From NCBI GenBank assembly GCA_011390365.1, contig JAABSM010000009.1, positions 1 through 64,000 on the forward strand: a stretch of DNA of 64,000 nt, read 5' to 3'. Source of the DNA: Gammaproteobacteria bacterium (GTDB lineage Bacteria; Pseudomonadota; Gammaproteobacteria; Chromatiales; Chromatiaceae). Shown one piece after another: positions 1 through 9,725 of this stretch. Each line of letters begins with the position of its first letter. Position 1 is the stretch's first letter. The notes beneath the pieces were generated by a model. It saw nothing but the letters and a program-made list of their open reading frames with translations, was not told the origin of the DNA and made no database searches. The position numbers were made by a program, and so were the translations under genes.

Positions 1-773
1 TCCTTGCGCACGTCCTTGGCGACGCCGGCGGCGCGCGCGGTCGGCCCGGTGACGCCGTAGGGCTCAAGCCAGGCGGGGTCGATGTAGCCGGCACCCACCG
101 CGCGGCGCTTGAAGACGGCGTTGTTGAACATCACGTCCAGCACGTCGCTCATGGTGCTCTCGATCTCGCGCAGGGTCTCCTCCATGCGCGTGGCGAAGCC
201 TTCCGGCAGGTCGTCGCGCACCCCGCCGGGGATGATGAACATGTGGTAGATGCGCGCGCCGGTCAGCTCCTCGAAGCGATCGAGCATCAGGTCCCGCACA
301 TAGGTGGTCCACTGGCCGATCACCCCCTGACCGAAGGCCCCGGCCTGGCCGCCGAGGTACATCATGTAACTGTTGATGCGGCCCATTTCTAGAATGAGCG
401 TGCGGATCCAGTTCGCCTTCTCCGGCACCTCCAGCCCCGCCAGCTCCTCGACGGCGGCGGCGTAGCAGTATTCGTTGAAGTCCGGTTCGGGGACGCAGAT
501 GCGGCAGACGATGGGAAAGCACTGGATGAAGGTGCGCCGCTCCATCAGCTTCTCGAAGCCGCGATGCAGGTAGCCGACGTGGGTCTTGCCCTCTACCACC
601 TCGTCGCCGCAAACCGTCAGCTCCACCGCCATGTTGCCGGTAATGCCCGGGTGTTGCGGTCCCTGCCACAGCTTCAGGTATTTCCCTGAAGTAAGGTCGA
701 TGTCGTAACTGCCGTCCGGCCGCCGCGCGGGGTACTGGCGGCGATCCGTCCGTTCAGGTTCAAGCAGGCTCAT
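1..773 (-). CDS. nuoD: NuoD/MbxL-like 49-kDa catalytic subunit (partial, C-terminus beyond window)
   Basis: This is the large subunit of the peripheral arm of a complex I-related oxidoreductase, where NuoD lines the quinone site and group 4 hydrogenases hold the NiFe centre. The visible 257 residues show the family's GPQHPG and GYLHRGFEKLMERR segments near the N-terminus. At residues 90-93 there is a Cys-Arg-Ile-Cys motif. By my alignment complex I has the acidic DRIE/DRID sequence there, while group 4 [NiFe] hydrogenases have their first CxxC. The start ATG overlaps the nuoC stop (ATGA) and has a GAAGG-type ribosome site. It is the last gene of the Mrp/Nuo operon visible here; the C-terminal motif that would decide hydrogenase versus oxidoreductase lies outside the window. 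Family assignment is sure; the subtype (MBX-like) is inferred. Confidence 0.9.
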   Translation of the reverse strand, partial: MSLLEPERTDRRQYPARRPDGSYDIDLTSGKYLKLWQGPQHPGITGNMAVELTVCGDEVVEGKTHVGYLHRGFEKLMERRTFIQCFPIVCRICVPEPDFNEYCYAAAVEELAGLEVPEKANWIRTLILEMGRINSYMMYLGGQAGAFGQGVIGQWTTYVRDLMLDRFEELTGARIYHMFIIPGGVRDDLPEGFATRMEETLREIESTMSDVLDVMFNNAVFKRRAVGAGYIDPAWLEPYGVTGPTARAAGVAKDVRK

Positions 774-1309
774 GAATTGCCCTTCCCATCCGGGTAGAGT
801 TGCTGTTTCATGTATTCCGCCGGGTCGCGGGTCTCCCGCCCCGGTCGGTGGACGTAGTTCTCTTCGGCATACTTGAGGGTATCGAAATCCCGTCGATAGG
901 GGGGAATGTCGTTCCACCCCTCCAGGATGAACTCCTCGTTGACGCCGGGGCTCTCGGGAAAGTCGATGCCGAACATCTCCCGCAGCTCCCGCTGATAGGT
1001 GGCGGCGGTGGGCCAGAGATCGTGGATGCTCTCCATGCTCGCCCCTTCGCGGGGGATGCGAATGCGCACTCCCAGATCCATCGCCTTGTCGCGGTTATGC
1101 AGCAGATAGGTGAGCTGAAACTCCCCCTCCTCCAGCCAGTCCACGGCGGTGAGTATCACCAGATGGGTAAAACCCTCCCGATCCCGCAAGTGCTGGAGCA
1201 ACGACCGCAGGATATCCCGCCGCACCGTGACGAAGGCGAGATTCTCTCGTCGTTCGTCCCACTCCCCCAGGGGGAAGCTTTGCCATAGTCTGTCTTGGAG
1301 TTGTTGCAT
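770..1309 (-). CDS. nuoC: NuoC/MbxK-like 30-kDa subunit
   Basis: This is a stand-alone 30-kDa subunit of the peripheral arm (179 aa), which packs against NuoB and NuoD. The family signature is clear: a WPTAATYQRELREMFGI stretch followed by FILEGW and PPYRRDFD. The reading frame is open a further 35 codons upstream, but that extension reads through intergenic repeats, so the internal ATG at 1309 (sequence MQQLQDRLW) is taken as the start, with a weak GGGA just upstream. The gene overlaps nuoD by four bases and is separated from nuoB by 126 bp holding two repeat elements. NuoC is not fused to NuoD, unlike the fused NuoCD of enterics. Confidence 0.9.
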   Translation of the reverse strand: MQQLQDRLWQSFPLGEWDERRENLAFVTVRRDILRSLLQHLRDREGFTHLVILTAVDWLEEGEFQLTYLLHNRDKAMDLGVRIRIPREGASMESIHDLWPTAATYQRELREMFGIDFPESPGVNEEFILEGWNDIPPYRRDFDTLKYAEENYVHRPGRETRDPAEYMKQQLYPDGKGNS

Positions 1310-1329
1310 GTTCCCAGATTCAGTTATTG

Positions 1330-1359
1330 CCACAGAGGCACAGAGTACACAGAGATAAT
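1330..1359. repeat. CACAGAGG-type nested repeat between nuoB and nuoC
   Basis: A run of staggered CACAGAG units (CACAGAGGCACAGAGTACAC) in the 126-bp nuoB-nuoC gap. Related copies occur at 17851, 21136, 23243, 25550 and 25652. The function is unknown. Confidence 0.7.
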
Positions 1360-1377
1360 TCTTTCGGTCTGGTCGGC

Positions 1378-1406
1378 CTGGTGCCGAGGCTCCGCCTGGA
1401 TACCAG
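1378..1406. repeat. REP-like palindrome (copy 1)
   Basis: The palindrome consists of GGTGCCGAGGC, a short loop and GCCTGGATACC. It combines the two arm types seen at the REP copies that flank the RAYT gene at 2340 and 2947, so it looks like a dispersed copy of the same element inside the operon. Confidence 0.7.
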
Positions 1407-1435
1407 AGATTCATTTAGACTTTTCGCAGAAAAGT

Positions 1436-2077
1436 CTACCAGTTATAGTCAGGCATATCCCAATCATGGATCACCGCCTTCTGGTTGGCCTTGTACCACT
1501 CGAAGTTCTCTGCGTAGTGGTTCGCCCCCTCGCCCTCGCCGGCGCGGATGATCTTCTTGAGATCCTCGAAGCCTTGCAGCAGCGCCTCGGGGCGGGGCAT
1601 GCAGCCGGCGATGTAGAGATCCACCGGCAGGTACTGATCCAGCCGCTTGATGGTGTTGTAGGAGTCCCAGTACATGCCGCCGTTAATGGTGCAGGAGCCC
1701 AGGCCTACCACGTATTTCGGGTTCTGCATCTGTTCGTAGGAGCGGATCACCCGCTTGAGGGTCTTTACCGAGAGGTAGCCCGAGATCACGAACAGATTCG
1801 CCTGGCGCGGCGTCGGTCGCCACTGGATGCCATAGCGATAGGCGTCGAAACGCGGCGTCATCAACGGCCGCATCTCGATCGCCCCGCAACCGGTGCCGAA
1901 GCCGAGAATCCACAGGGATTCCGCCCGCGCCCAGTTGAAAAACTTCTCGATGATGCCGGTGTACTCCGGCGTCTGAACCGTCGGCCCCGCCTCGCAATAG
2001 TAATCGCGCAGCGGCTCCACCTCGATCTCCTGACCGTCGGGAGTGCGAACGATGCGTTTTTCCAGTTCTTCCTTCAT
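1436..2077 (-). CDS. nuoB: NuoB/MbxJ-like subunit with single Cys in place of the tandem pair
   Basis: This is the subunit that holds the terminal [4Fe-4S] cluster (N2 in complex I) next to the catalytic site; it has 213 aa. The ligand region reads GTGCGAIEM at residues 61-69, whereas complex I NuoB has CC followed by A-V/I-E-M. By my alignment the second Cys of the tandem is therefore Gly65. The other two ligands are present (C129 in GLGSC, C159 in AGCMPRP), and an additional Cys lies at residue 28. The start at 2077 has AAGG seven bases upstream. It follows nuoH in the operon order but is separated from it by the RAYT gene. Identity as a NuoB-family protein is secure; how the cluster is ligated is not. 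Confidence 0.92.
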   Translation of the reverse strand: MKEELEKRIVRTPDGQEIEVEPLRDYYCEAGPTVQTPEYTGIIEKFFNWARAESLWILGFGTGCGAIEMRPLMTPRFDAYRYGIQWRPTPRQANLFVISGYLSVKTLKRVIRSYEQMQNPKYVVGLGSCTINGGMYWDSYNTIKRLDQYLPVDLYIAGCMPRPEALLQGFEDLKKIIRAGEGEGANHYAENFEWYKANQKAVIHDWDMPDYNW

Positions 2078-2119
2078 TGCAAAACCTTCGTATCGCTTGC
2101 TTCGCCGTTGACGAGTAAA

Positions 2120-2162
2120 GAATAGACAGGATTAACAGAATTGCTCAGGATTGACAGGATGG
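2120..2162 (+). repeat. ACAGGATTAAC nested repeat (copy 1)
   Basis: The element has staggered ACAGGAT/CAGGATT units of about 11 bp starting GAATAGACAGGATTAACAG. It forms an inverted pair with the copy at 2273-2320. Confidence 0.75.
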
Positions 2163-2272
2163 AAGAGGGATTAACCTGTCCGGCTATCTCACTGCTTCCT
2201 CCAATATCCTGCGTATGTATTGGCTGACTCAATAGCATAGTGCTCCACCAGCACGGATACGCCCAAAAAAGT

Positions 2273-2320
2273 GATCCTGTAAATCCTGCACAATCCTGTT
2301 AATCCTGTCCATTTCTTCTC
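2273..2320 (-). repeat. ACAGGATTAAC nested repeat (copy 2)
   Basis: An inverted copy reading AATCCTGTTAATCCTGTCC on the plus strand. Its flank (2291-2336) matches 3027-3073, which spans the nuoH stop codon. Confidence 0.75.
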
Positions 2321-2336
2321 TTAAACCAGCAAAATC
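2291..2336. repeat. Direct duplicate of the nuoH 3' end, left copy
   Basis: About 46 bp nearly identical to 3027-3073: an ACAGGATTAAC-type element followed by TAAACCAGCAAAATC. In the right copy this last motif is the last codons and stop of nuoH. The two copies bracket the RAYT-REP block. Confidence 0.75.
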
Positions 2337-2339
2337 AAT

Positions 2340-2395
2340 CTGGTGCCGAGGCTCTGCCTCGGCACCCTGTCTTGGCGGCTCTGCCGCCCGAACAG
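2340..2395. repeat. REP palindrome pair downstream of the RAYT gene
   Basis: Two adjacent hairpins, GGTGCCGAGGC/GCCTCGGCACC and GGCGGC/GCCGCC, lie directly after the RAYT stop codon. They mirror the pair at 2947-2998 on the other side of the gene, as expected for REP sequences served by a RAYT. Confidence 0.75.
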
Positions 2396-2396
2396 T

Positions 2397-2933
2397 TCAT
2401 GCTAGCCGAGTGATCGGCACCAAACCCTCTTGCCCCGCATAATCCCGTGCACTGGAATAGCGCCAGTGCATCGCTTCATCCACATAGCCCCGTTTGACGG
2501 GGTTATGGTGGATATATTCCAGCTTGTTGTTCAGTACCGCTTCGCTGTAAATCAACTGGGGGTGGCTCCCTTCCTGCCACACCTGGTATTGCTGTTCGGA
2601 CTTGTGCGGTGCCTTGTGAAAGGCCAACTGTTTCAGTGCCCACACTTTGTCGTGTTGCTCGAACCAGTCGATACAGCTTCGAGCGGTAAACGACTTGAAG
2701 TCGCCGATCTCCTTATCCAGATTTTTCGATGAGGCCACCATGTGGAGGTGGTTTTCCATCAATACATAGCCGTGAATCCGCAGTCGCCCATGCTCGTGCA
2801 GGAAGCGCAGGGAACCGAGCACGATTTCCGCGATGGCCGGGTTGCCGAACAGGGGTAGCCAGTTCACCACCGTACAGGTGAGAAAGTAGGGTTCTCCTCC
2901 GTCTGTGACTACCTTGTAGCGGCTTTTTCCCAT
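2397..2933 (-). CDS. REP-associated transposase (RAYT, Y1/IS200-like fold)
   Basis: A 178-residue member of the IS200-like transposase family that mobilises or maintains REP hairpins. The HUH motif is seen at residues 60-66 (ENHLHMV), and the C-terminal family signature HHNPVKRGYV is present. The segment where many family members carry the catalytic tyrosine reads DFKSFTARS (about residues 78-86), with no Tyr; whether another Tyr serves or the protein is inactive cannot be told. REP palindromes lie on both sides. The gene interrupts the Mrp/Nuo operon between nuoH and nuoB, in the same orientation as the operon. Confidence 0.85.
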   Translation of the reverse strand: MGKSRYKVVTDGGEPYFLTCTVVNWLPLFGNPAIAEIVLGSLRFLHEHGRLRIHGYVLMENHLHMVASSKNLDKEIGDFKSFTARSCIDWFEQHDKVWALKQLAFHKAPHKSEQQYQVWQEGSHPQLIYSEAVLNNKLEYIHHNPVKRGYVDEAMHWRYSSARDYAGQEGLVPITRLA

Positions 2934-2946
2934 TTAGCCTTCCAAT

Positions 2947-2998
2947 CGGGCGGCAGAGCCGCCAAGACTCGGTATCCAGGCGGAGCCTGGATACCAGT
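2947..2998. repeat. REP palindrome pair upstream of the RAYT gene
   Basis: GGCGGC/GCCGCC followed by GGTATCCAGGC/GCCTGGATACC, in mirror order to 2340-2395. Together the two pairs bracket the RAYT gene as inverted copies. Confidence 0.75.
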
Positions 2999-3006
2999 TC
3001 CGTAAA

Positions 3007-3056
3007 AAATCCTGTCAATCCTGAAAAATCCTGTTAATCCTGTCTATTTCTTCTCG
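3007..3056 (-). repeat. ACAGGATTAAC nested repeat (copy 3), abutting the nuoH stop
   Basis: The repeat begins one to two bases after the nuoH TAG codon and carries AATCCTGTTAATCCTGTC on the plus strand. The match to copy 2 extends into the nuoH coding end (3027-3073). Confidence 0.75.
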
Positions 3057-3057
3057 A

Positions 3058-3972
3058 CTAAACCAGCAAAATCGCCGCGACGCCAATCGGTACCGCCCAA
3101 ACCAGAAACCAGCGGATCGACTGCTCGACCCGAAACCTCGGAAAGACCACGCCGACGAAGACCGAGACCATGTAGATGCAGAAGACCTTGAAGAAGAACA
3201 CCGGCCAGCTTGCCGCGCCGCCGAAGAAGAGGTTCATGTAGACCACTATTTTCGCAATAGGAAAGATGGCGCGGTTGGTTTGCATTAGCGCCAAATACGA
3301 AGAATGGTATTCGGTGGGCGGGCCGATGGGGATCTCCTGGGGGGCGAGCACCACGTCGAAGGGGGGGCGCATCATGGAGCCGAGGAATCCGAGCATGGCG
3401 GCGGTTACCGCCAGCGGGTTGGTGAAGAGGGTCCAGTTGCTGACGCCCCCTTGCTGGGCGGCGACGATCTCGGTGATGGAGAGGGTCTGGTACTGGAGGG
3501 CGATGGCGAACACCGCCAGGGCGAAGGGCAGTTCGGCGGCGGTGACCTGGGAGAGGCCCCTGGTGATGCCGATGGCCGAGTAGGGGTGGCCGCTCTCCCC
3601 GGCGCCCAGCGCCATGCCCAGGGTGCCGAAGAAGACGAAGTAGAGGGCCAGGATCAGGTCGCCGGCGAAGGAGAAGTTGGCGAACATCACCGAGCCGTAG
3701 ATGGTCGGCACAAACAGCAGCAGGCCGACGCCGCCGGAGAGGCGGAAGACCGGCCCCAGGTAGAACATGACGCCATGGGTGATGGAGGTGCGCAGGGCGT
3801 AGTTCTTGATCAGGTCGGCGTAGTTCTGCCAGATGGGAATGCCGTGACGACGGCCCACCCGCGCGCCGATCTTCTGCATCAGCGCGGTGAGCAGCATGCC
3901 GAAGTTGACCACGATGAAGAGGGTCAACAGGGCGTAGGGAATCTGGATCCATTCGAAAGAAGAGGGCGTCAT
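3058..3972 (-). CDS. nuoH: NuoH/MbxM-like membrane subunit
   Basis: This is the membrane subunit that connects the peripheral arm to the antiporter module and forms part of the quinone/ion channel (304 aa, about eight membrane segments). Family landmarks include GARVGRRHGIP in the first cytoplasmic loop, the acidic GAGESGHPYSAIGITRGLSQVTAAELP segment (read here in two parts) and MRPPFDVVLAPQEIPIGPPTEYHS. The start is set at the ATG at 3972 with GAGGA upstream; the open frame beyond it runs through repeats. It lies 220 bp downstream of the fused antiporter gene and is followed by a repeat and the RAYT gene. Confidence 0.9.
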   Translation of the reverse strand: MTPSSFEWIQIPYALLTLFIVVNFGMLLTALMQKIGARVGRRHGIPIWQNYADLIKNYALRTSITHGVMFYLGPVFRLSGGVGLLLFVPTIYGSVMFANFSFAGDLILALYFVFFGTLGMALGAGESGHPYSAIGITRGLSQVTAAELPFALAVFAIALQYQTLSITEIVAAQQGGVSNWTLFTNPLAVTAAMLGFLGSMMRPPFDVVLAPQEIPIGPPTEYHSSYLALMQTNRAIFPIAKIVVYMNLFFGGAASWPVFFFKVFCIYMVSVFVGVVFPRFRVEQSIRWFLVWAVPIGVAAILLV

Positions 3973-4015
3973 GCTGCTTCGTTCCTCAACCCGGTTACGT
4001 GGAAATCGAAATATG

Positions 4016-4046
4016 AACCGCAGATTTCGCAGATTGACGCAGATTG
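4016..4046 (+). repeat. CGCAGATT repeat (left arm)
   Basis: Three staggered CGCAGATT units beginning AACCGCAGATTTCGCAGATT. They form an inverted pair with 4149-4192 in the gap between nuoH and the antiporter fusion. Confidence 0.7.
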
Positions 4047-4148
4047 TTGAATTGCGCCTTGTTCCGACTTCAGTCCATGAAAACAACCGCTAAAATACAC
4101 ACCAGGGCCAATGGTTACCGAGACACAACTATTGGAAGTTTCCGTGCA

Positions 4149-4192
4149 AGCAATCTGCGCAAATCTGCGTACATCCGCGGTTAAATATTTCT
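4149..4192 (-). repeat. CGCAGATT repeat (right arm)
   Basis: The inverted counterpart, reading CAATCTGCGCAAATCTGCG on the plus strand. It abuts the stop codon of the antiporter-fusion gene at 4193. Confidence 0.7.
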
Positions 4193-7100
4193 TCATAACC
4201 CGACCCCCAGCAGATAGACCGCCACCACGAAGGCCAGCAGGTGGATGGCGTAGGTCTGGCCGTTGCCGGTGTAGATGCGGCGGGTCAGGTCCGCGCCGCT
4301 GTGCAGCGCCTCGCTGATCGTCTCCCAGAAGCGGGTGACATAGGGCTCAGTGAGAAAGCCCAGCGCCTTGCGATAGGGGGCGAAGAAGTTCCAGGCGAAG
4401 TGGGTGGTCTCCGGGCGATGCGGGCGTTCGGCGGCGAAGACGATGTTGAACTGCTTGACCTTCTGGGCTTTTCTGTTCACGAATACCAACCACAGGAACA
4501 GCGTCGCGAAGATCGCGCCGACCACCACCATGATCGGGATCGGCGCCCAGTAGCCGTACTGGCTGGTGATGGTCAGTCCCGCCCAGTCGAGCCCGCCGCC
4601 GGGGTAGAACTGGTTGATGTAGTTGTCCACATGGCGCAGCGCCAGCCCCGGCACCAGGGCGAAGATCATCAGGCAGACCACGAAGATCATCTGCGGCAAC
4701 AGGATCCAGAAGGGGGCCTCCTTGAGCTTGCGGTGTTCATCCTTGAGCTGTCCCAGGAAGATGGTGTGGATCAGTCTGAAGAGATACAGGAAGGCGATGG
4801 GGCCGGCGAGGAACAGGATCACCAGCGGCAGCCGGGTCTCGATGTCGATAATGGCGTTGTAGGTGATCCAGCGCCCGCCAAAGCCAGAAAGCGGCGGCAC
4901 GCCGGAGACGGCGATAATGCCGATCAGCACCGCGATAAACGACAGCGGCATCAGGGTGATCAGGCCGCCCATGCGGTACATGTCGCGGGTGCCGGTGCGC
5001 TTGGCGATGCCGCCCACCGAGAGAAACAGCATCGACTTGTAGATGTAGTGGTTGATGACGAACATCAGCGCCATCAGCAGCCCAAGGTGGTTCATCATGG
5101 CGATGCCAAACAGGGCATAGCCCATCTGGCCGATGGAGGAGTAGGCGAGCAGCCGCTTGGCATCCTCCTGGAAGGCGGCGAGGAGGTTGCCGATCAGCGC
5201 CGACAGTGCGCCGATCCACAGCATCACATGGGTGAGTTCGATGCCGAAGAGCTGCTGCTTGCCCATGGTGAGGGCCAAGGTGATGAGGCCGAAGACGCCG
5301 GCCTTGAGCAATATGCCCGAGACCATGGGCGAGACATCCGTCTCCGCCTCGGCATGGGCGCCGGGTAGCCAGATGTGCAGGCCGATGGCGGCGGTCTTGG
5401 TCATGAAGCCGATCGCCAGCAGGGCGAAGATCCAGGGGGCGAGGGGTTCGGAAAGCTCGCTCAACGCCGAGACCAGGAAGATGTCGGCGCCCTGGGCCGC
5501 CAGCGAGAACCCGGCCAGGATCAGGAAGGCCCCGCCCAGGGAGAAGACCAGATAGGAGAGGGCGTGGGGTTCGGAGTGTTTGCCGCGCAGGATCAGAAAG
5601 TAGGAGCCGATGGTGAGCAGCTCCCAGGCGGCGAAGAACTGAAAGCTGGTTTCCGCGACGATAAGCATCGCCAGCCCGGCGTACATCAGCATCGCCGAGG
5701 GGTAGAAGCCGATCCGCTTGCCGTGGGCGTGATAGCTGGCGAGCAGGATCAGCGCCCCGCCCACCAGGATCACCGCGCCGAAGATGAGCTGCATCGGGTC
5801 GTAGCCGGGATAGCTGAGCCAGAACCAGGCCAGCAGGCCGGCGATGGCAACGCTGTTCTTGAGCCAGGCGGGCAGTCCCTCGATGAGCAGGAAGCCCAGC
5901 GCGAAGAGCAGCGGCAGGGCATGCAGCAGATTGGCGTGCACGGAAAGCTCACCCCACACCCAGGCCAGGCCCCAGCCGATGGCGGTGGCGCTATGTACCA
6001 CCAGGCACTTGCGCAGGGGCGGACGCGGCTGGGCGATCCCCTCGTTGGGCTCGCGCTTGATCACATAGCCGAACCAGCGGAACAGGTAGGCCGCCTCCAC
6101 CAGCGCCGCGAACAGCAGCAGGATCATGACGCCGATGCGATCGGCGTCGGCCAGCGCCCCCATCAACTCCCACTTGGCGTAGAACCCGGGGAAGGGGGGC
6201 AGGCCGGTGAGCATGGCGATGAAGGTGACGAAACCGAACAGCAACAGCGGACGTTGGCGCAATACGCTCCAGGCGCTCAGCCCCTGCTCCGGAATGAAGC
6301 CGGAGAGCCAGAAGAGTCCAGCCTTGGCGACCGCATGGGAGAGCAATATGCCGCCGGCGATGAAGAGGTAGTCGTCGCCGAGGATATCCTGCTGGCCGAT
6401 CACCACCAGGATCAGCCCCACCTGGCCAATCGACGAGTAGCCGAGCAGACGGCGGTCCTTGTCCTGGGGCAGCGCCAGCAGATTGGCGGCGACGAAGCTG
6501 GTCAGCCCCACGGCGGTGGCCACCGGCAGCCATTCGGTACCGCCGATCAGCAGCAGCTTGTCCACGGCGTAGAGGGCGGCGGCCCCGGCGATCGCCGACG
6601 ACAGGATGGCGGAGAAGGCGGGGTGGGCGGATTCGTAGAGATCCAGCGCCCAGCCGTTGGCGGGGAAGGGCTTGAGCTCCGCCAGCATGGCGATAAAGAG
6701 CAGGAAGAAGGCGAGCATGCCGCCCTGGCGGGTGATCAGGGCGGCGTCGGCCATGCCGTCGATATTCAGGGTGCCGGTGGCGTGATAAGCAAAGATCAGG
6801 CCGATCAGCATCAGGATCGACACCAGCTGCGAGATGATCAGGTACTTGAAGCCGGCCCCCAGGGCGAAGCGACTGGCCGAGAGCAGCACCAGACCGGCGG
6901 TGGCGATGACCATCAGCTCGATGAAGACGTAGAGGTTGAACAGGTCGCGGGTGAGGATGATCCCGGCCAGGGACATGGTCAGGATCAGCAGCACCGCCAT
7001 CGCCCGCCGACCCAGGCGATGCAATGTGTCCTTGAGATAGATCGCCGACAATAGGCTGGTGACGGTCACCAGCAGGGTGAGCACCGCCTCGGCCATGCCC

Positions 7101-7327
7101 AGATGCAGCGCCACCGCGAAGGGCGGCGGGGTGCCGGCGGTGTGGATCTCCAGCGCCTGGCCCCCTTCCATGGCGAAGTACCACACCCAGCCGCCGGCGA
7201 TGGCCGCCATGGCGGCGAGCGCCGCCAGGGTGATGGCATAGGCCAAGCCGCGCCATCGACTGGGCAGCAGCCCGATCAGGAACGCGGCCCCCAGGCCGAG
7301 GGCGATGAGAATCAGGGCGTTTACCAC
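4193..7327 (-). CDS. Fused double antiporter-like subunit (MbxH'-MbxH / MrpD-NuoM type)
   Basis: A 1044-residue, almost entirely membrane-spanning protein made of two proton-antiporter (NuoL/M/N, MrpA/D) domains in tandem. The first domain (about residues 1-440) shows the key glutamate in FIELM (E137), the lysine in AELKPFP, and LLGYSSIGQVG. The second (about 500-930) shows AAWELLTIGSY, FMTKTAAIGLHIWLPGAHAEA, LLAYSSIGQMG and INHYIYKSMLF. A C-terminal extension ends in a last membrane helix. Each domain would carry an ion-translocation path. The start is GTG at 7327, overlapping mnhC by seven bases. In the archaeal MBX operon the equivalents are, as I recall, two separate genes. Confidence 0.88.
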   Translation of the reverse strand: MVNALILIALGLGAAFLIGLLPSRWRGLAYAITLAALAAMAAIAGGWVWYFAMEGGQALEIHTAGTPPPFAVALHLGMAEAVLTLLVTVTSLLSAIYLKDTLHRLGRRAMAVLLILTMSLAGIILTRDLFNLYVFIELMVIATAGLVLLSASRFALGAGFKYLIISQLVSILMLIGLIFAYHATGTLNIDGMADAALITRQGGMLAFFLLFIAMLAELKPFPANGWALDLYESAHPAFSAILSSAIAGAAALYAVDKLLLIGGTEWLPVATAVGLTSFVAANLLALPQDKDRRLLGYSSIGQVGLILVVIGQQDILGDDYLFIAGGILLSHAVAKAGLFWLSGFIPEQGLSAWSVLRQRPLLLFGFVTFIAMLTGLPPFPGFYAKWELMGALADADRIGVMILLLFAALVEAAYLFRWFGYVIKREPNEGIAQPRPPLRKCLVVHSATAIGWGLAWVWGELSVHANLLHALPLLFALGFLLIEGLPAWLKNSVAIAGLLAWFWLSYPGYDPMQLIFGAVILVGGALILLASYHAHGKRIGFYPSAMLMYAGLAMLIVAETSFQFFAAWELLTIGSYFLILRGKHSEPHALSYLVFSLGGAFLILAGFSLAAQGADIFLVSALSELSEPLAPWIFALLAIGFMTKTAAIGLHIWLPGAHAEAETDVSPMVSGILLKAGVFGLITLALTMGKQQLFGIELTHVMLWIGALSALIGNLLAAFQEDAKRLLAYSSIGQMGYALFGIAMMNHLGLLMALMFVINHYIYKSMLFLSVGGIAKRTGTRDMYRMGGLITLMPLSFIAVLIGIIAVSGVPPLSGFGGRWITYNAIIDIETRLPLVILFLAGPIAFLYLFRLIHTIFLGQLKDEHRKLKEAPFWILLPQMIFVVCLMIFALVPGLALRHVDNYINQFYPGGGLDWAGLTITSQYGYWAPIPIMVVVGAIFATLFLWLVFVNRKAQKVKQFNIVFAAERPHRPETTHFAWNFFAPYRKALGFLTEPYVTRFWETISEALHSGADLTRRIYTGNGQTYAIHLLAFVVAVYLLGVGL

Positions 7328-7680
7328 TTCAGCTCCGTAAACTTGGTGATATCCAGACTACCTTTGGATTCATGTAGCTTGTAGGCGTAGGCGAGCATCA
7401 GCGTGGTCACCCCCAGGCCGATGACGATGGCGGTCAGCACCAGCGCCTGGGGCAGGGGATCGATGATGCGGGCCACTGCCTCGGCGGCCGGTACCGCCTC
7501 GTCGAGGATCGGCGCGGTGCGCCCGTGCATGTAACCCACCGCCACCATCACCAGGTTGACGCCGGTGGTGGCAAGGGTGAAGGAGACGATGATGCGCAGG
7601 ATGTTGCGGTTGGTGAGGGCGCCGTAGAGCCCGATCAGTACCAGCATGAATCCCGTCGCCATGGCGACTTCGGCCATCAT
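7321..7680 (-). CDS. mnhC: MnhC/MrpC (NuoK-like) antiporter subunit
   Basis: A 119-residue three-helix membrane protein of the MrpC/NuoK family. The diagnostic MrpC stretch DPLPQALVLTAIVIG lies at about residues 74-88. It overlaps the upstream mnhB by four bases (ATGA) and the downstream fusion gene by seven, which indicates translational coupling. In the complex it sits between the MnhB and antiporter subunits. Confidence 0.93.
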   Translation of the reverse strand: MMAEVAMATGFMLVLIGLYGALTNRNILRIIVSFTLATTGVNLVMVAVGYMHGRTAPILDEAVPAAEAVARIIDPLPQALVLTAIVIGLGVTTLMLAYAYKLHESKGSLDITKFTELKW

Positions 7681-8375
7681 TTGCCCTCCGTTTCCGAGAG
7701 ATTAACCAGCATCGAGCTGAACTCCGCCCCCACCTTCAAGCCGACGAAGGCGTAGATGATGGGGATTGCGCCGGCGGAGAAGATCGACCCGTACTCGCCC
7801 AGCGGCAGGATACGGTTGTCGAGAAAGCCGCCCGCGAACAGCAGGCCGAGCACGCCGAGCGAGATAAAGGCGAGACCGGAGACGGACTCCACCACCGTGA
7901 TCATGCGGTGGCCGAAGCGCCGCGTCGGGTAGGTGAGCAGCAGCAACAGGATCGCCGAGGCGAGGATCGCGCCCCCCTGGAAGCCGCCGCCAGGGGTCAG
8001 GTGACCATTGATGAAGACATAGGCCCCCAGCAGCAGGATCAGCGGCGCAAGCAGACGACTACCGGTCTCCAGCAGCTCGCCTGGGGGCGGCAGTTCCAGC
8101 TGCAAGGCCCGTTCCCGACGCCCCCGCGCCAGCACCATGCCGACGATGGTGGCGGTAAGAAACAGTACCGTCACCTCGCCCAATGTGTCGAGACCGCGAT
8201 AGGTAACGATGATCGCGGTGACGATATTGGCGGCGCCGATATCCTTGGCGGTATTCTCGGCGTAATAGCGACCGGTGAGGTTGAGCTCCTCATCCGGGGT
8301 GTAACCAGCCATCAGCCCGGCGAAGGCCGCACCGAGGCCGAGCAACAGCAGCAGTACCGCGAGGTGTCTAATCAT
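7677..8375 (-). CDS. mnhB: MbhE+MnhB fusion (MbxF-like) antiporter subunit
   Basis: A 232-residue membrane protein. The N-terminal part (about 1-90) resembles the C-terminal piece of MrpA/MbhE (NIVTAIIVTYRGLDTLGEV). The rest is the MnhB domain with its hallmark YVFINGHLTPGGGFQGG and IPIIYAFVGLKVGAEFSS. In stand-alone Mrp antiporters the first part belongs to MrpA; here, as in MBX-type operons, it is joined to MnhB. It overlaps its neighbours on both sides. Confidence 0.9.
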   Translation of the reverse strand: MIRHLAVLLLLLGLGAAFAGLMAGYTPDEELNLTGRYYAENTAKDIGAANIVTAIIVTYRGLDTLGEVTVLFLTATIVGMVLARGRRERALQLELPPPGELLETGSRLLAPLILLLGAYVFINGHLTPGGGFQGGAILASAILLLLLTYPTRRFGHRMITVVESVSGLAFISLGVLGLLFAGGFLDNRILPLGEYGSIFSAGAIPIIYAFVGLKVGAEFSSMLVNLSETEGK

Positions 8376-8634
8376 GCCCCTTGCCCCCCTGTTCCCGACC
8401 GCGGATGCGGCCCAGCACGAAGAAGAAGAGAAAGGTGGTCAGGCCGCTGCCGATCGCCGCCTCGGTCATCGCCACGTCCGGCGCGGCGAGAAACAGGAAC
8501 TGCACCGAGGCGAGCAGGCTCACCAATCCAGCGGCGAGGATCGCCACCGCGACTCGTTGTACATGGATCGCCAGTACCGCCGCCCCGAGCATGGCGGCGC
8601 ATACCAGCAGGCTGAGAGCGAGCATCAGGGTCAT
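8368..8634 (-). CDS. DUF4040/MbhD-like antiporter subunit
   Basis: An 88-residue protein with three hydrophobic segments matching the DUF4040 region found in the MrpA C-terminus and in MbhD/MbxD. It includes the conserved AAPDVAMTEAAIGSGL stretch. It overlaps mnhB by eight bases and mnhG by four. Its presence as a separate small gene is typical of Mbh/Mbx operons. Confidence 0.87.
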   Translation of the reverse strand: MTLMLALSLLVCAAMLGAAVLAIHVQRVAVAILAAGLVSLLASVQFLFLAAPDVAMTEAAIGSGLTTFLFFFVLGRIRGREQGGKGHD

Positions 8635-8969
8635 GACTCCCCCCCATGATCCTGCGCCAGCCGGTCCACCTTGGTCGATGCCGCCATTGGCACCTTGTTG
8701 CGATGGGCGGCGCGCGCCAGCACCTGGGACGAGAGGGGGTTGGTGAAGAGCAGAAACAGCCCGATCAGCAACAGTTTCCAGCCCCAGCTCGGTTCGATGC
8801 AGGCCACCCCGGCCAGCACCAACAAGGTGCCCAGGGTGGTGGTCTTGGTGCCCGCCTGGATGCGGTTGTAGAGGTCAGGCATGCGCACCAGGCCGATGCC
8901 GCCGAACAGCAGAAACGCCGCCCCCGCCGCCATCAGCAGGCCGCCCAGGATGTCGAGAAACTCCGCCAT
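8631..8969 (-). CDS. mnhG: MnhG/MrpG antiporter subunit
   Basis: A 112-residue small membrane subunit. The MnhG signature GIGLVRMPDLYNRIQAGTK is present, followed by TTTLGTLLVLAG and FTNPLSSQVLARAA. The start at 8969 was chosen because it makes the usual ATGA overlap with mnhF and leaves the family's normal length; the longer open frame upstream is a shadow of mnhF. Confidence 0.93.
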   Translation of the reverse strand: MAEFLDILGGLLMAAGAAFLLFGGIGLVRMPDLYNRIQAGTKTTTLGTLLVLAGVACIEPSWGWKLLLIGLFLLFTNPLSSQVLARAAHRNKVPMAASTKVDRLAQDHGGES

Positions 8970-9229
8970 CAGAAGCGCCCCTCCAGGTAGCGGGCCACGG
9001 CGATCACGCCAAGAAACGACAGCAGCGCGTAGACCAGCGCCACGTCGAGATAGATGCCCCGCCCTTCCGCCAGCGCCGCCAGCGCGATGAGGGTGATGGA
9101 GATCACCGTCAATACATCGAAGGCCACCACCCGATCGGCGGCGGTCGGTCCCTGAATGAAGCGCCACAGGGCGAGCAGAAAGCCGCCGCCGGCCAACAGC
9201 GCGGCGAGCAGGATCAGCATCTCAGCCAT
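8969..9229 (-). CDS. mnhF: MnhF/MrpF antiporter subunit
   Basis: An 86-residue, three-helix protein with the MnhF core GPTAADRVVAFDVLTVISI and DVALVYALLSFLGVIAVARYLEG. It overlaps mnhE by eight bases and its stop shares bases with the mnhG start. It is part of the MnhE-F-G submodule needed for assembly of Mrp-type antiporters. Confidence 0.94.
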   Translation of the reverse strand: MAEMLILLAALLAGGGFLLALWRFIQGPTAADRVVAFDVLTVISITLIALAALAEGRGIYLDVALVYALLSFLGVIAVARYLEGRF

Positions 9230-9725
9230 ACATCACCTCAAGGTAGGATTCGAATCCGGCGACGATGCGGGCGGTGGCCTCTTCGGTATCGGTGGTCTCG
9301 GCGTTAACCCAATGCACGTAGAGCCACTCACCTTCCATTTCGACGGTGAGGGTGCCGGGGGTCAGGGTGATGGAGTTGGCCAGCATCAGCCGCCCCATGC
9401 GGCTCTTGAGCCGGGTGCGTACCTTGACGATCGCCGGCTCGATGGGCAGCGAAGGGGAGAGAACGATGGCGGCGAGGCGAAAATTGGACCGCACCAGCTC
9501 GCGCAGGAAATAGCCATAGTAGCGAAAGCCAGTGGTGATCGCCGCCAGGGTCGGGCGCAACTCGGTGAAGAAAGAGAGGCCGTCGCGAAACAGCAGCGCG
9601 ATGGCCAGCGACACCAGCGCGCCGGTGATCAGCACATCGCTCGCCAGCGAGCCGGCCAGCATCAGCCAGAACAGCAGCAGGGTGACGAAGAGGATGCCGG
9701 TATCGCGTACCCAGGCCATCACCAA
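9222..9725 (-). CDS. mnhE: MnhE/MrpE antiporter subunit; first gene of the Mbx-like operon
   Basis: A 167-residue MnhE-family protein with two N-terminal hydrophobic helices and the family motif ANSITLTPGTLTVE. It opens the operon. AAGGA lies five bases before a TTG at 9725 and eleven before an in-frame ATG at 9719; either could be the true start. Upstream lie 330 bp without a gene, so the operon's promoter is probably there. Confidence 0.92.
   Translation of the reverse strand: MVMAWVRDTGILFVTLLLFWLMLAGSLASDVLITGALVSLAIALLFRDGLSFFTELRPTLAAITTGFRYYGYFLRELVRSNFRLAAIVLSPSLPIEPAIVKVRTRLKSRMGRLMLANSITLTPGTLTVEMEGEWLYVHWVNAETTDTEEATARIVAGFESYLEVMYG

Follow-up and report, generated by a model that had tools for sequence, protein, structure and literature searches.

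We analyzed a 64,000-base stretch of a Chromatiaceae genome (contig JAABSM010000009.1, hereafter the window), which is the beginning of a 70,984-base contig in an assembly of 4.26 Mb, 169 contigs (this one is C169) and 98.02% completeness. At its left edge, on the minus strand and read from position 9725 down to position 1, lie eleven genes for a complex of the type described as MBS from the archaeon Pyrococcus furiosus, i.e., mbsA, B, C, D, E, G, an H–H' fusion, M, J, K and L. Our best reading, to which we give a probability of about 0.5, is that they encode an NADH-linked, ion-pumping sulfane-sulfur/disulfide oxidoreductase of MBS type. The features are:

9222..9725, minus strand: mbsA, MnhE-like, 167 residues, Na+ module (NCBIfam MrpE models, best E-value 1.4e-29)
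8969..9229, minus strand: mbsB, MnhF-like, 86 residues (NCBIfam MrpF models, best 2.3e-24)
8631..8996, minus strand: mbsC, MnhG-like, 121 residues (PF03334, 9.9e-26; TIGR01300 over cut-off)
8368..8634, minus strand: mbsD, MbhD-like, 88 residues (PF13244, 5.3e-15)
7677..8375, minus strand: mbsE, a fusion of MbhE and MbhF/MnhB, 232 residues (PF20501, 6.2e-9; PF04039, 1.1e-24)
7321..7680, minus strand: mbsG, MnhC/NuoK-like, 119 residues (PF00420, Oxidored_q2, 2.5e-23)
4193..7327, minus strand: mbsH-mbsH' fusion, 1044 residues, two Proton_antipo_M stretches (PDB chains 6u8y_H, 2.4e-35, N-terminal half; 6u8y_X, 1.4e-54, C-terminal half)
3058..3972, minus strand: mbsM, NuoH-like, start ATG at 3972 (PF00146, NADHdh, 6.4e-44; 6u8y_M, 6.5e-38)
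2397..2933, minus strand: transposase of the tyrosine type associated with repetitive extragenic palindromes (REP), not a complex subunit (NF047646 over cut-off)
1436..2077, minus strand: mbsJ, NuoB-like, 213 residues, with a three-cysteine proximal cluster site (Oxidored_q6; 6u8y_J, 7.5e-66)
770..1309, minus strand: mbsK, NuoC-like, start ATG at 1309 (PF00329, Complex1_30kDa, 3.6e-25)
3..773, minus strand: mbsL, NuoD-like, N-terminal part, cut by the contig start (PF00346, Complex1_49kDa, 1.8e-25)

Open reading frames, Pfam and NCBIfam bear out, gene for gene, the list of eleven genes given in a preliminary description of this DNA. Pfam E-values ranged from 6.2e-9 for the MbhE part up to 2.7e-81 over the operon proteins, MnhE and MnhF being scanned with NCBIfam only. 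The subunit set A-B-C-D-E-G-H-H'-M-J-K-L stands in the order that we take to be that of the archaeal P. furiosus operon, as the description had also put it under the name mbxABCDFGH'HMJKL. It had kept Mbx and Mbs apart as two systems; the P. furiosus MBX is now named MBS, and the distinction falls away. Its fusion of MbhE and MnhB is present and is the ordinary form of MbsE, which in P. furiosus is likewise an MbhE+MbhF fusion. Its double antiporter subunit indeed carries two antiporter units in one chain, which we identify as MbsH fused to MbsH'. NuoD is present as well, but only as an N-terminal part of about 257 codons, 254 of which could be aligned, because the contig begins inside the gene; a search of the host assembly did not find the C-terminus elsewhere.

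Relatives of the operon were collected by a profile scan of genome contigs with a 14-row NuoD alignment, which gave at least 552 of them, and the best 80 were fetched. This sample leans to close relatives and consists mostly of metagenome-assembled genomes, so that single phylum labels may equal binning errors; two loci, L077 and L025, belong to the same genome and are both counted in the NuoD and fusion rows. The gene order was identical wherever a stretch was long enough to show it, and H–H' was a single reading frame of more than 950 residues in 56 of the 80 loci, a count that includes truncated ones.

Neither the window nor the sequence fetched for the 80 related loci gave a match to NuoA, E, F, G, J or K (tblastn with E. 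coli queries, E <= 1e-5). The same search found all six in the host's own complex I (locus L035, contig C66), and the absence of these genes from the window, as first described, is thus upheld by a control; MnhC itself is a distant NuoK relative (Pfam Oxidored_q2). In a NuoD tree of 100 rows (LG+C20+F+G4 with posterior mean site frequencies, IQ-TREE), the window NuoD, P. furiosus MbsL and three bacterial clades formed one clade of 93 rows with support of 100/100. Outside it lay the complex I NuoDs, four in number, of the host, E. coli, Thermus and Mycobacterium, as well as MbhL, HycE and HyfG. The tree has long branches and a single archaeal reference, and in its first version a long-branch warning included MbsL; nevertheless, three thinned trees kept the clade, with 100/100 for all groups, 100/100 without the hydrogenases and 100/99 without clades A and C. 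The branching order among MbsL, clade B and the pair A+C inside the MBS clade was not settled by these trees. All three bacterial clades, i.e., A with the window, B and C, occur in the host family.

A comparison against the whole PDB, which covered NuoD, NuoB, NuoH and both antiporter halves, led to the MBS structure 6u8y each time. For NuoD, represented by the full-length homologue from locus L023, the best chain was 6u8y_L (5.1e-93) and the next was Thermus complex I (5.4e-63). NuoB matched its MBS counterpart at 7.5e-66, the runner-up being a cyanobacterial NDH/complex I chain at 1.5e-37, and NuoH did so at 6.5e-38 versus 3.1e-12 for the next chain. MBS 6u8y was also the closest solved relative of both antiporter halves.

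The residues around the putative active site point the same way. In MBS, the proximal [4Fe-4S] cluster is bound by MbsJ C28, C93 and C123, C25 being too distant, and the C25A and C85A/C385A mutants are still active. Ferricyanide takes out the non-cysteine iron and activity is lost, iron brings it back, and residues of the quinone-binding His38/Tyr87 type are lacking (PMC7684303). In clade A, NuoB C28, C93 and C123 were kept in 71/71 rows, the window included. C25 was replaced by Gly in 70 of the 71, among them the window, and by Ala in one, and the tandem CC of complex I read TGCG in 67/68 rows, with the remaining row outside the pattern. By its alignment, the proximal [4Fe-4S] site keeps exactly those three cysteines with which MBS binds its catalytic, site-differentiated cluster. 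In NuoD, the positions of Thermus His38 and Tyr87 were Thr and Val in 81/81 clade-A rows. The two CxxC pairs of [NiFe] large subunits were complete in none of these rows, the C-terminal pair being readable only in relatives due to the cut window gene.

Three candidates were rejected on these grounds. Ordinary complex I is excluded by the trees, the lost quinone residues and the missing NuoEFG/A/J/K; a group 4 [NiFe] hydrogenase or MBH by the incomplete NiFe pairs; and a stand-alone Mrp antiporter by the NuoB, C, D and H homologues in the same operon. With NuoD grouped with archaeal MbsL in the full and all three thinned trees, and no NuoEFG/A/J/K adjoining, the assignment as MBX-like rather than ordinary complex I stands, and we regard it as highly probable that the window complex belongs to the MBS/MBX kind. 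The host complex I on contig C66 shares homologous core subunits with it; unlike the window, it has NuoEFG/A/J/K, His38/Tyr87 and tandem NuoB cysteines, and it lies on its own tree branch. Judged from the two loci, the MBS-type complex is encoded beside, not in place of, the host's ordinary complex I.

One feature sets clades A and C apart. A NuoD cysteine precedes a conserved arginine in 81/81 clade-A and 4/4 clade-C rows, one residue before it in 68 and 4 rows, respectively, and two residues before it in the other 13 clade-A rows. The seven rows of clade B and MbsL have no such cysteine and retain NuoB C25. As A and C are sister clades (99/98), the loss of NuoB C25 and the gain of the NuoD cysteine look like one event in their common ancestor, and the rows are therefore not independent. 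In complex I the conserved arginine is close to cluster N2, and the NuoD cysteine could for that reason be a fourth cluster ligand or a catalytic thiol.

The donor had been called unknown, with the suggestion to look for NuoI/MbxN left of position 1. Relatives narrow this down. Directly after NuoD, 75 of the 80 loci encode a protein of about 600 residues in which a NuoI/MbsN ferredoxin domain is followed by an FAD–NAD(P)H domain of NfnB/GltD type. Four of the other five end too early, and in L065 the fusion is split, with no NuoI part in the reading frame of the GltD part. The family model of the fusion (PRK13984/NF010590, 'putative oxidoreductase') matched over its full length with 878 bits, under the curated cut-off of 946, and 6u8y_N was the best NuoI-type PDB match. 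Seventeen cysteines, enough for four [4Fe-4S] clusters, were each present in 71 or all of the 72 rows. The fusion shares with NfnB, GltD and DsrL (PDB 5jca; PMC7596348) the FAD–NAD(P)H domain and the N-terminal two-cluster domain; it differs from them by the attached NuoI/MbsN ferredoxin domain and by its place in a complex I-like operon.

Among the related DsrL flavoproteins of sulfur bacteria, those with a YRR motif use NADP(H) and the others NAD(H) (PMC7596348). When this rule is applied to the fusions of clades A and B, the motif is absent in 72/80, and NAD(H) is hence the predicted partner in most members. It was present in 8/80 (L116, L118-L122, L125 and L127), which are early-branching clade-A fusions, and a coenzyme switch inside clade A is possible. 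For the clade we consider NAD(H) input via the fusion very probable from this motif analysis, and we infer it for this host. The question of the donor is thus narrowed to NAD(H) as the likely partner, and the expected NuoI does follow NuoD in relatives, as part of the fusion, but the gene was not found in the host assembly. Clade C (L029, L031, L033 and L039) represents a third MBS-like operon type in the host family, where a separate NuoI replaces the NuoI-GltD fusion; this NuoI of 130 residues was found in three of its four loci, and none was found in the fourth within the sequence available.

Pump residues were read from an alignment of 57 rows to MbsH/MbsH' and E. coli NuoL/M/N, with residue roles taken from MBS (PMC7684303). 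In the C-terminal half, the Glu of transmembrane helix (TM) 5 and the Lys of TM7 and TM8 were present in 57/57 rows, and the TM12 position was Arg in 35 and Lys in 22. The N-terminal half had TM5 Glu and TM12 Lys in 57/57 and an acidic TM7 residue (Glu in 55, Asp in 2), and at the TM8 Lys site, MbsH Lys250, it had Thr, Ala, Ser or Gly. Within five columns of this axis site, Lys, Arg or His occurred in 0/57 rows of the N-terminal and 57/57 of the C-terminal half. At the position of MbsH H330 and MbsH' H336, neither half had His. As a control, this TM8 column was also Thr in E. coli NuoL, which does pump, and the change in the N-terminal half hence need not mean that pumping is lost.

We propose the following course of the reaction. 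Electrons would enter or leave via the one-chain NuoI-NfnB/GltD flavoprotein seen in relatives, with FAD and four [4Fe-4S] clusters; from NADH they would pass to FAD, along the four clusters and on to the proximal cluster, whose open iron would reduce the S–S bond of polysulfide or another disulfide. A coupled conformational change would drive H+ pumping by the antiporter-like units (axis Glu and both Lys are retained in the C-terminal unit), while H+ would be swapped for Na+ by the Mrp module. As the substrate we favor sulfane sulfur or another disulfide, a best guess that we put at even odds or slightly below. MBS yields 41 kJ/mol per two electrons and MBH 12 (PMC7684303); we estimate that NADH (near -320 mV) to polysulfide would yield about 10 kJ/mol per two electrons at standard potentials. 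The smaller yield from NADH would be consistent with a weaker array of pumps and with the altered TM8 site of the N-terminal half.

Several observations weigh against this proposal. The estimated yield of about 10 kJ/mol leaves little to drive pumping; the NuoL control makes the argument from the pump residues a weak one; and the window NuoH keeps, in its PDB alignment, only 3/5 of the charged-axis residues of MbsM. The fusion gene was not found when the host assembly was searched: the best matches were GltD-type proteins of 30-35% identity, one of which, on contig C117 near a DsrA fragment, is probably DsrL. The eight YRR fusions would predict NADP(H). If the NuoD cysteine is a fourth iron ligand, it closes the cluster and the MBS chemistry would not apply. 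Moreover, we know of no measured activity for any clade member, and to our knowledge Celeribacter, Tropicimonas and Prolixibacter, all of them hosts, are not known as sulfur reducers.

The proposed step lies near equilibrium, and the complex may hence also run backwards, the ion gradient then pushing electrons from reduced sulfur to NAD+. That it does so mainly, supplying a sulfur oxidizer with NADH (or reduced ferredoxin) for biosynthesis from polysulfide or persulfide, we consider rather unlikely. In favor of this and of the main reading alike, the host family is rich in DsrA: 30/35 genomes match (E <= 1e-40) and 28 of these pass the cut-off, with two fragments below it in the host itself. 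The count marks most members of the family as Dsr-bearing and says nothing on whether the operon goes with Dsr. No sequence feature fixes the direction, and the operon also occurs in records labeled Spirochaetota, Bacteroidota, Cloacimonadota and Rhodobacterales, many of which we recall as non-autotrophs. The Riftia symbiont, Ca. Endoriftia, is a gammaproteobacterium. In this sulfur-oxidizing tubeworm symbiont, a 'putative Mrp-Mbx complex' shares its first neighbors with genes of the reductive tricarboxylic acid cycle and not of the Calvin–Benson–Bassham cycle (PMC11636981), which speaks for the reverse direction; we liken it to the window operon by name. For DsrL-1 of sulfur oxidizers, NAD+ is likewise the predicted acceptor (PMC7596348).

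Alternatively, the complex may be an ion-pumping ferredoxin:NAD+ oxidoreductase, with ferredoxin at the NuoI part and NAD+ reduced at the GltD part. The NuoD cysteine would then be the fourth iron ligand, and the proximal cluster would have no substrate chemistry. The presence of this cysteine beside the arginine in every clade-A and clade-C row, where NuoB C25 is gone, agrees with such a role, and MBX was first interpreted as a ferredoxin:NADP oxidoreductase (PMC4596419, PMC6349859). However, both redox sites would sit in the peripheral arm at its distal end and leave the chamber next to the membrane without a role, and MBS was later shown to reduce S–S bonds at this membrane-side chamber (PMC7684303). 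We hold this alternative to be unlikely.

The operon could also be a decaying remnant in this strain, cut by REP/transposase insertions so that no complex is made. All genes are in order, as the preliminary description had it, but they are not uninterrupted: the transposase gene, flanked by REP-like palindromes of about 40 bp, is inserted at 2078-3060 between mbsM (NuoH) and mbsJ (NuoB). This region of 983 bases matches the host genome at 141 places, counting its own, mostly over 40-50 bases. Further spacers of about 220 bases separate H–H' from M and of about 126 bases J from K, where the relative L023 has 2-3 bases. These interruptions and the input gene absent from the host assembly would suit a remnant. 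All insertions are intergenic, though, none of the eleven reading frames is broken before the contig ends, the key residues are kept in the window, and the missing end is a contig end, which makes decay improbable. Finally, a quinone-reducing complex I variant with another NADH input module would fit the fold family and a host that likely respires, given the complete complex I on C66, and is highly improbable in view of the trees, the Thr and Val at the quinone positions in all 81 clade-A rows and the separate host complex I with all six tested subunits.

Of known systems, the P. furiosus MBS (PDB 6u8y; PMC7684303) is the closest in kind: it has the subunit set MbsABCDEGHH'MJKL, the MbsE fusion, the three ligand cysteines, an MbsL that lacks the quinone residues and complete NiFe pairs, and a place in the same NuoD clade. 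The window operon differs in being bacterial, in the fusion of H and H', in the NuoI-GltD fusion that replaces MbsN in its relatives, in the loss of NuoB C25 and the gain of a cysteine before the NuoD arginine, and in an N-terminal pump half without Lys, Arg or His near the TM8 axis site. The window complex also fits the definition of Ehr (energy-converting hydrogenase-related) complexes, which are group-4-like but lack the NiFe ligands and have been described in lineages near Cyanobacteria (PMC6349859); the term is a broad bin that does not separate MBS from others. Bacterial MBS-type operons are also found in Thermotoga maritima, where mbxA was up 4.36-fold on S0 (PMC9431562), and in Caldanaerobacter/Thermoanaerobacter (PMC4596419); we liken these by description. 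To call such a module little-described was fair, but it is not undescribed, with these two and the Riftia symbiont (PMC11636981) in print. In the excerpts of two further papers (PMC10451490, PMC2246101) MBX is mentioned only in passing. A search of the open-access literature, with subscription papers outside it, found no description of an MBS operon with a NuoI-GltD fusion.

Detailed knowledge of MBS comes from a single hyperthermophilic archaeon, and the complex is taken as the evolutionary step between hydrogenase and complex I. A branch in bacteria whose input is of the NAD(H) type would open three questions to experiment: how the number of pumped ions relates to the driving force, how a site-differentiated cluster cleaves S–S bonds, and by which enzyme sulfur bacteria connect NADH with their internal sulfur. 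The finding also serves as a warning that NuoB/C/D/H-like genes of sulfur bacteria are easily mistaken for complex I. More speculatively, and with more doubt than confidence, we suggest a widespread second 'complex I' in bacteria of eight phylum labels, NADH-linked, quinone-independent and ion-pumping, that would cleave S–S bonds at an Fe-S cluster. Its A/C line would have lost a NuoB cysteine and gained one in NuoD, and one pump may have been downgraded for the smaller energy of NADH. If true, it could be the missing enzyme with which sulfur bacteria reduce stored sulfur in the dark or carry out reverse electron transport.

The operon was found in records labeled Pseudomonadota (alpha, beta and gamma), Bacteroidota, Spirochaetota, Fidelibacterota, Cloacimonadota, Chlorobiota, Myxococcota and Aminicenantes. 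Named carriers are Magnetovibrio blakemorei MV-1, Thiothrix caldifontis DSM 21228, Lamprobacter modestohalophilus, Thiohalocapsa marina, Celeribacter and Prolixibacter bellariivorans. Proteobacterial classes are intermixed in the NuoD tree, which suggests horizontal transfer. In a survey of 369 genomes of the class, 271 matched the fusion family at E <= 1e-60, a count swamped by ordinary GltD proteins; 15 genomes exceeded 600 bits, plus G352 in two pieces, and none passed the curated cut-off. The neighborhood was read for two of the 15 (G008 and G049), and both were clade B. Among 14 control genomes, seven matched the model, T. maritima among them, and one was over the cut-off.

Two recurrent neighbors of the fusion were noted, and neither is decisive for the substrate. 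One protein cluster follows the fusion directly in eight loci, all Bacteroidota/Chlorobiota (L095, L099, L109, L112, L117, L123, L124 and L128); its L095 member, the one scanned, belongs to the DHO_dh family. A rubrerythrin-like protein of about 167 residues (e.g., L025:7801-8304) is encoded near the fusion in 37 of the 65 loci whose sequence runs on for 800 bases or more beyond it. Upstream of the operon in L095, L109, L112 and L123 there is a Crp-type regulator, scanned in L095 only. In Magnetovibrio blakemorei MV-1 (L053:13540-21165), hydrogenase-like genes, as read from their sequence, follow the MBS-like operon.

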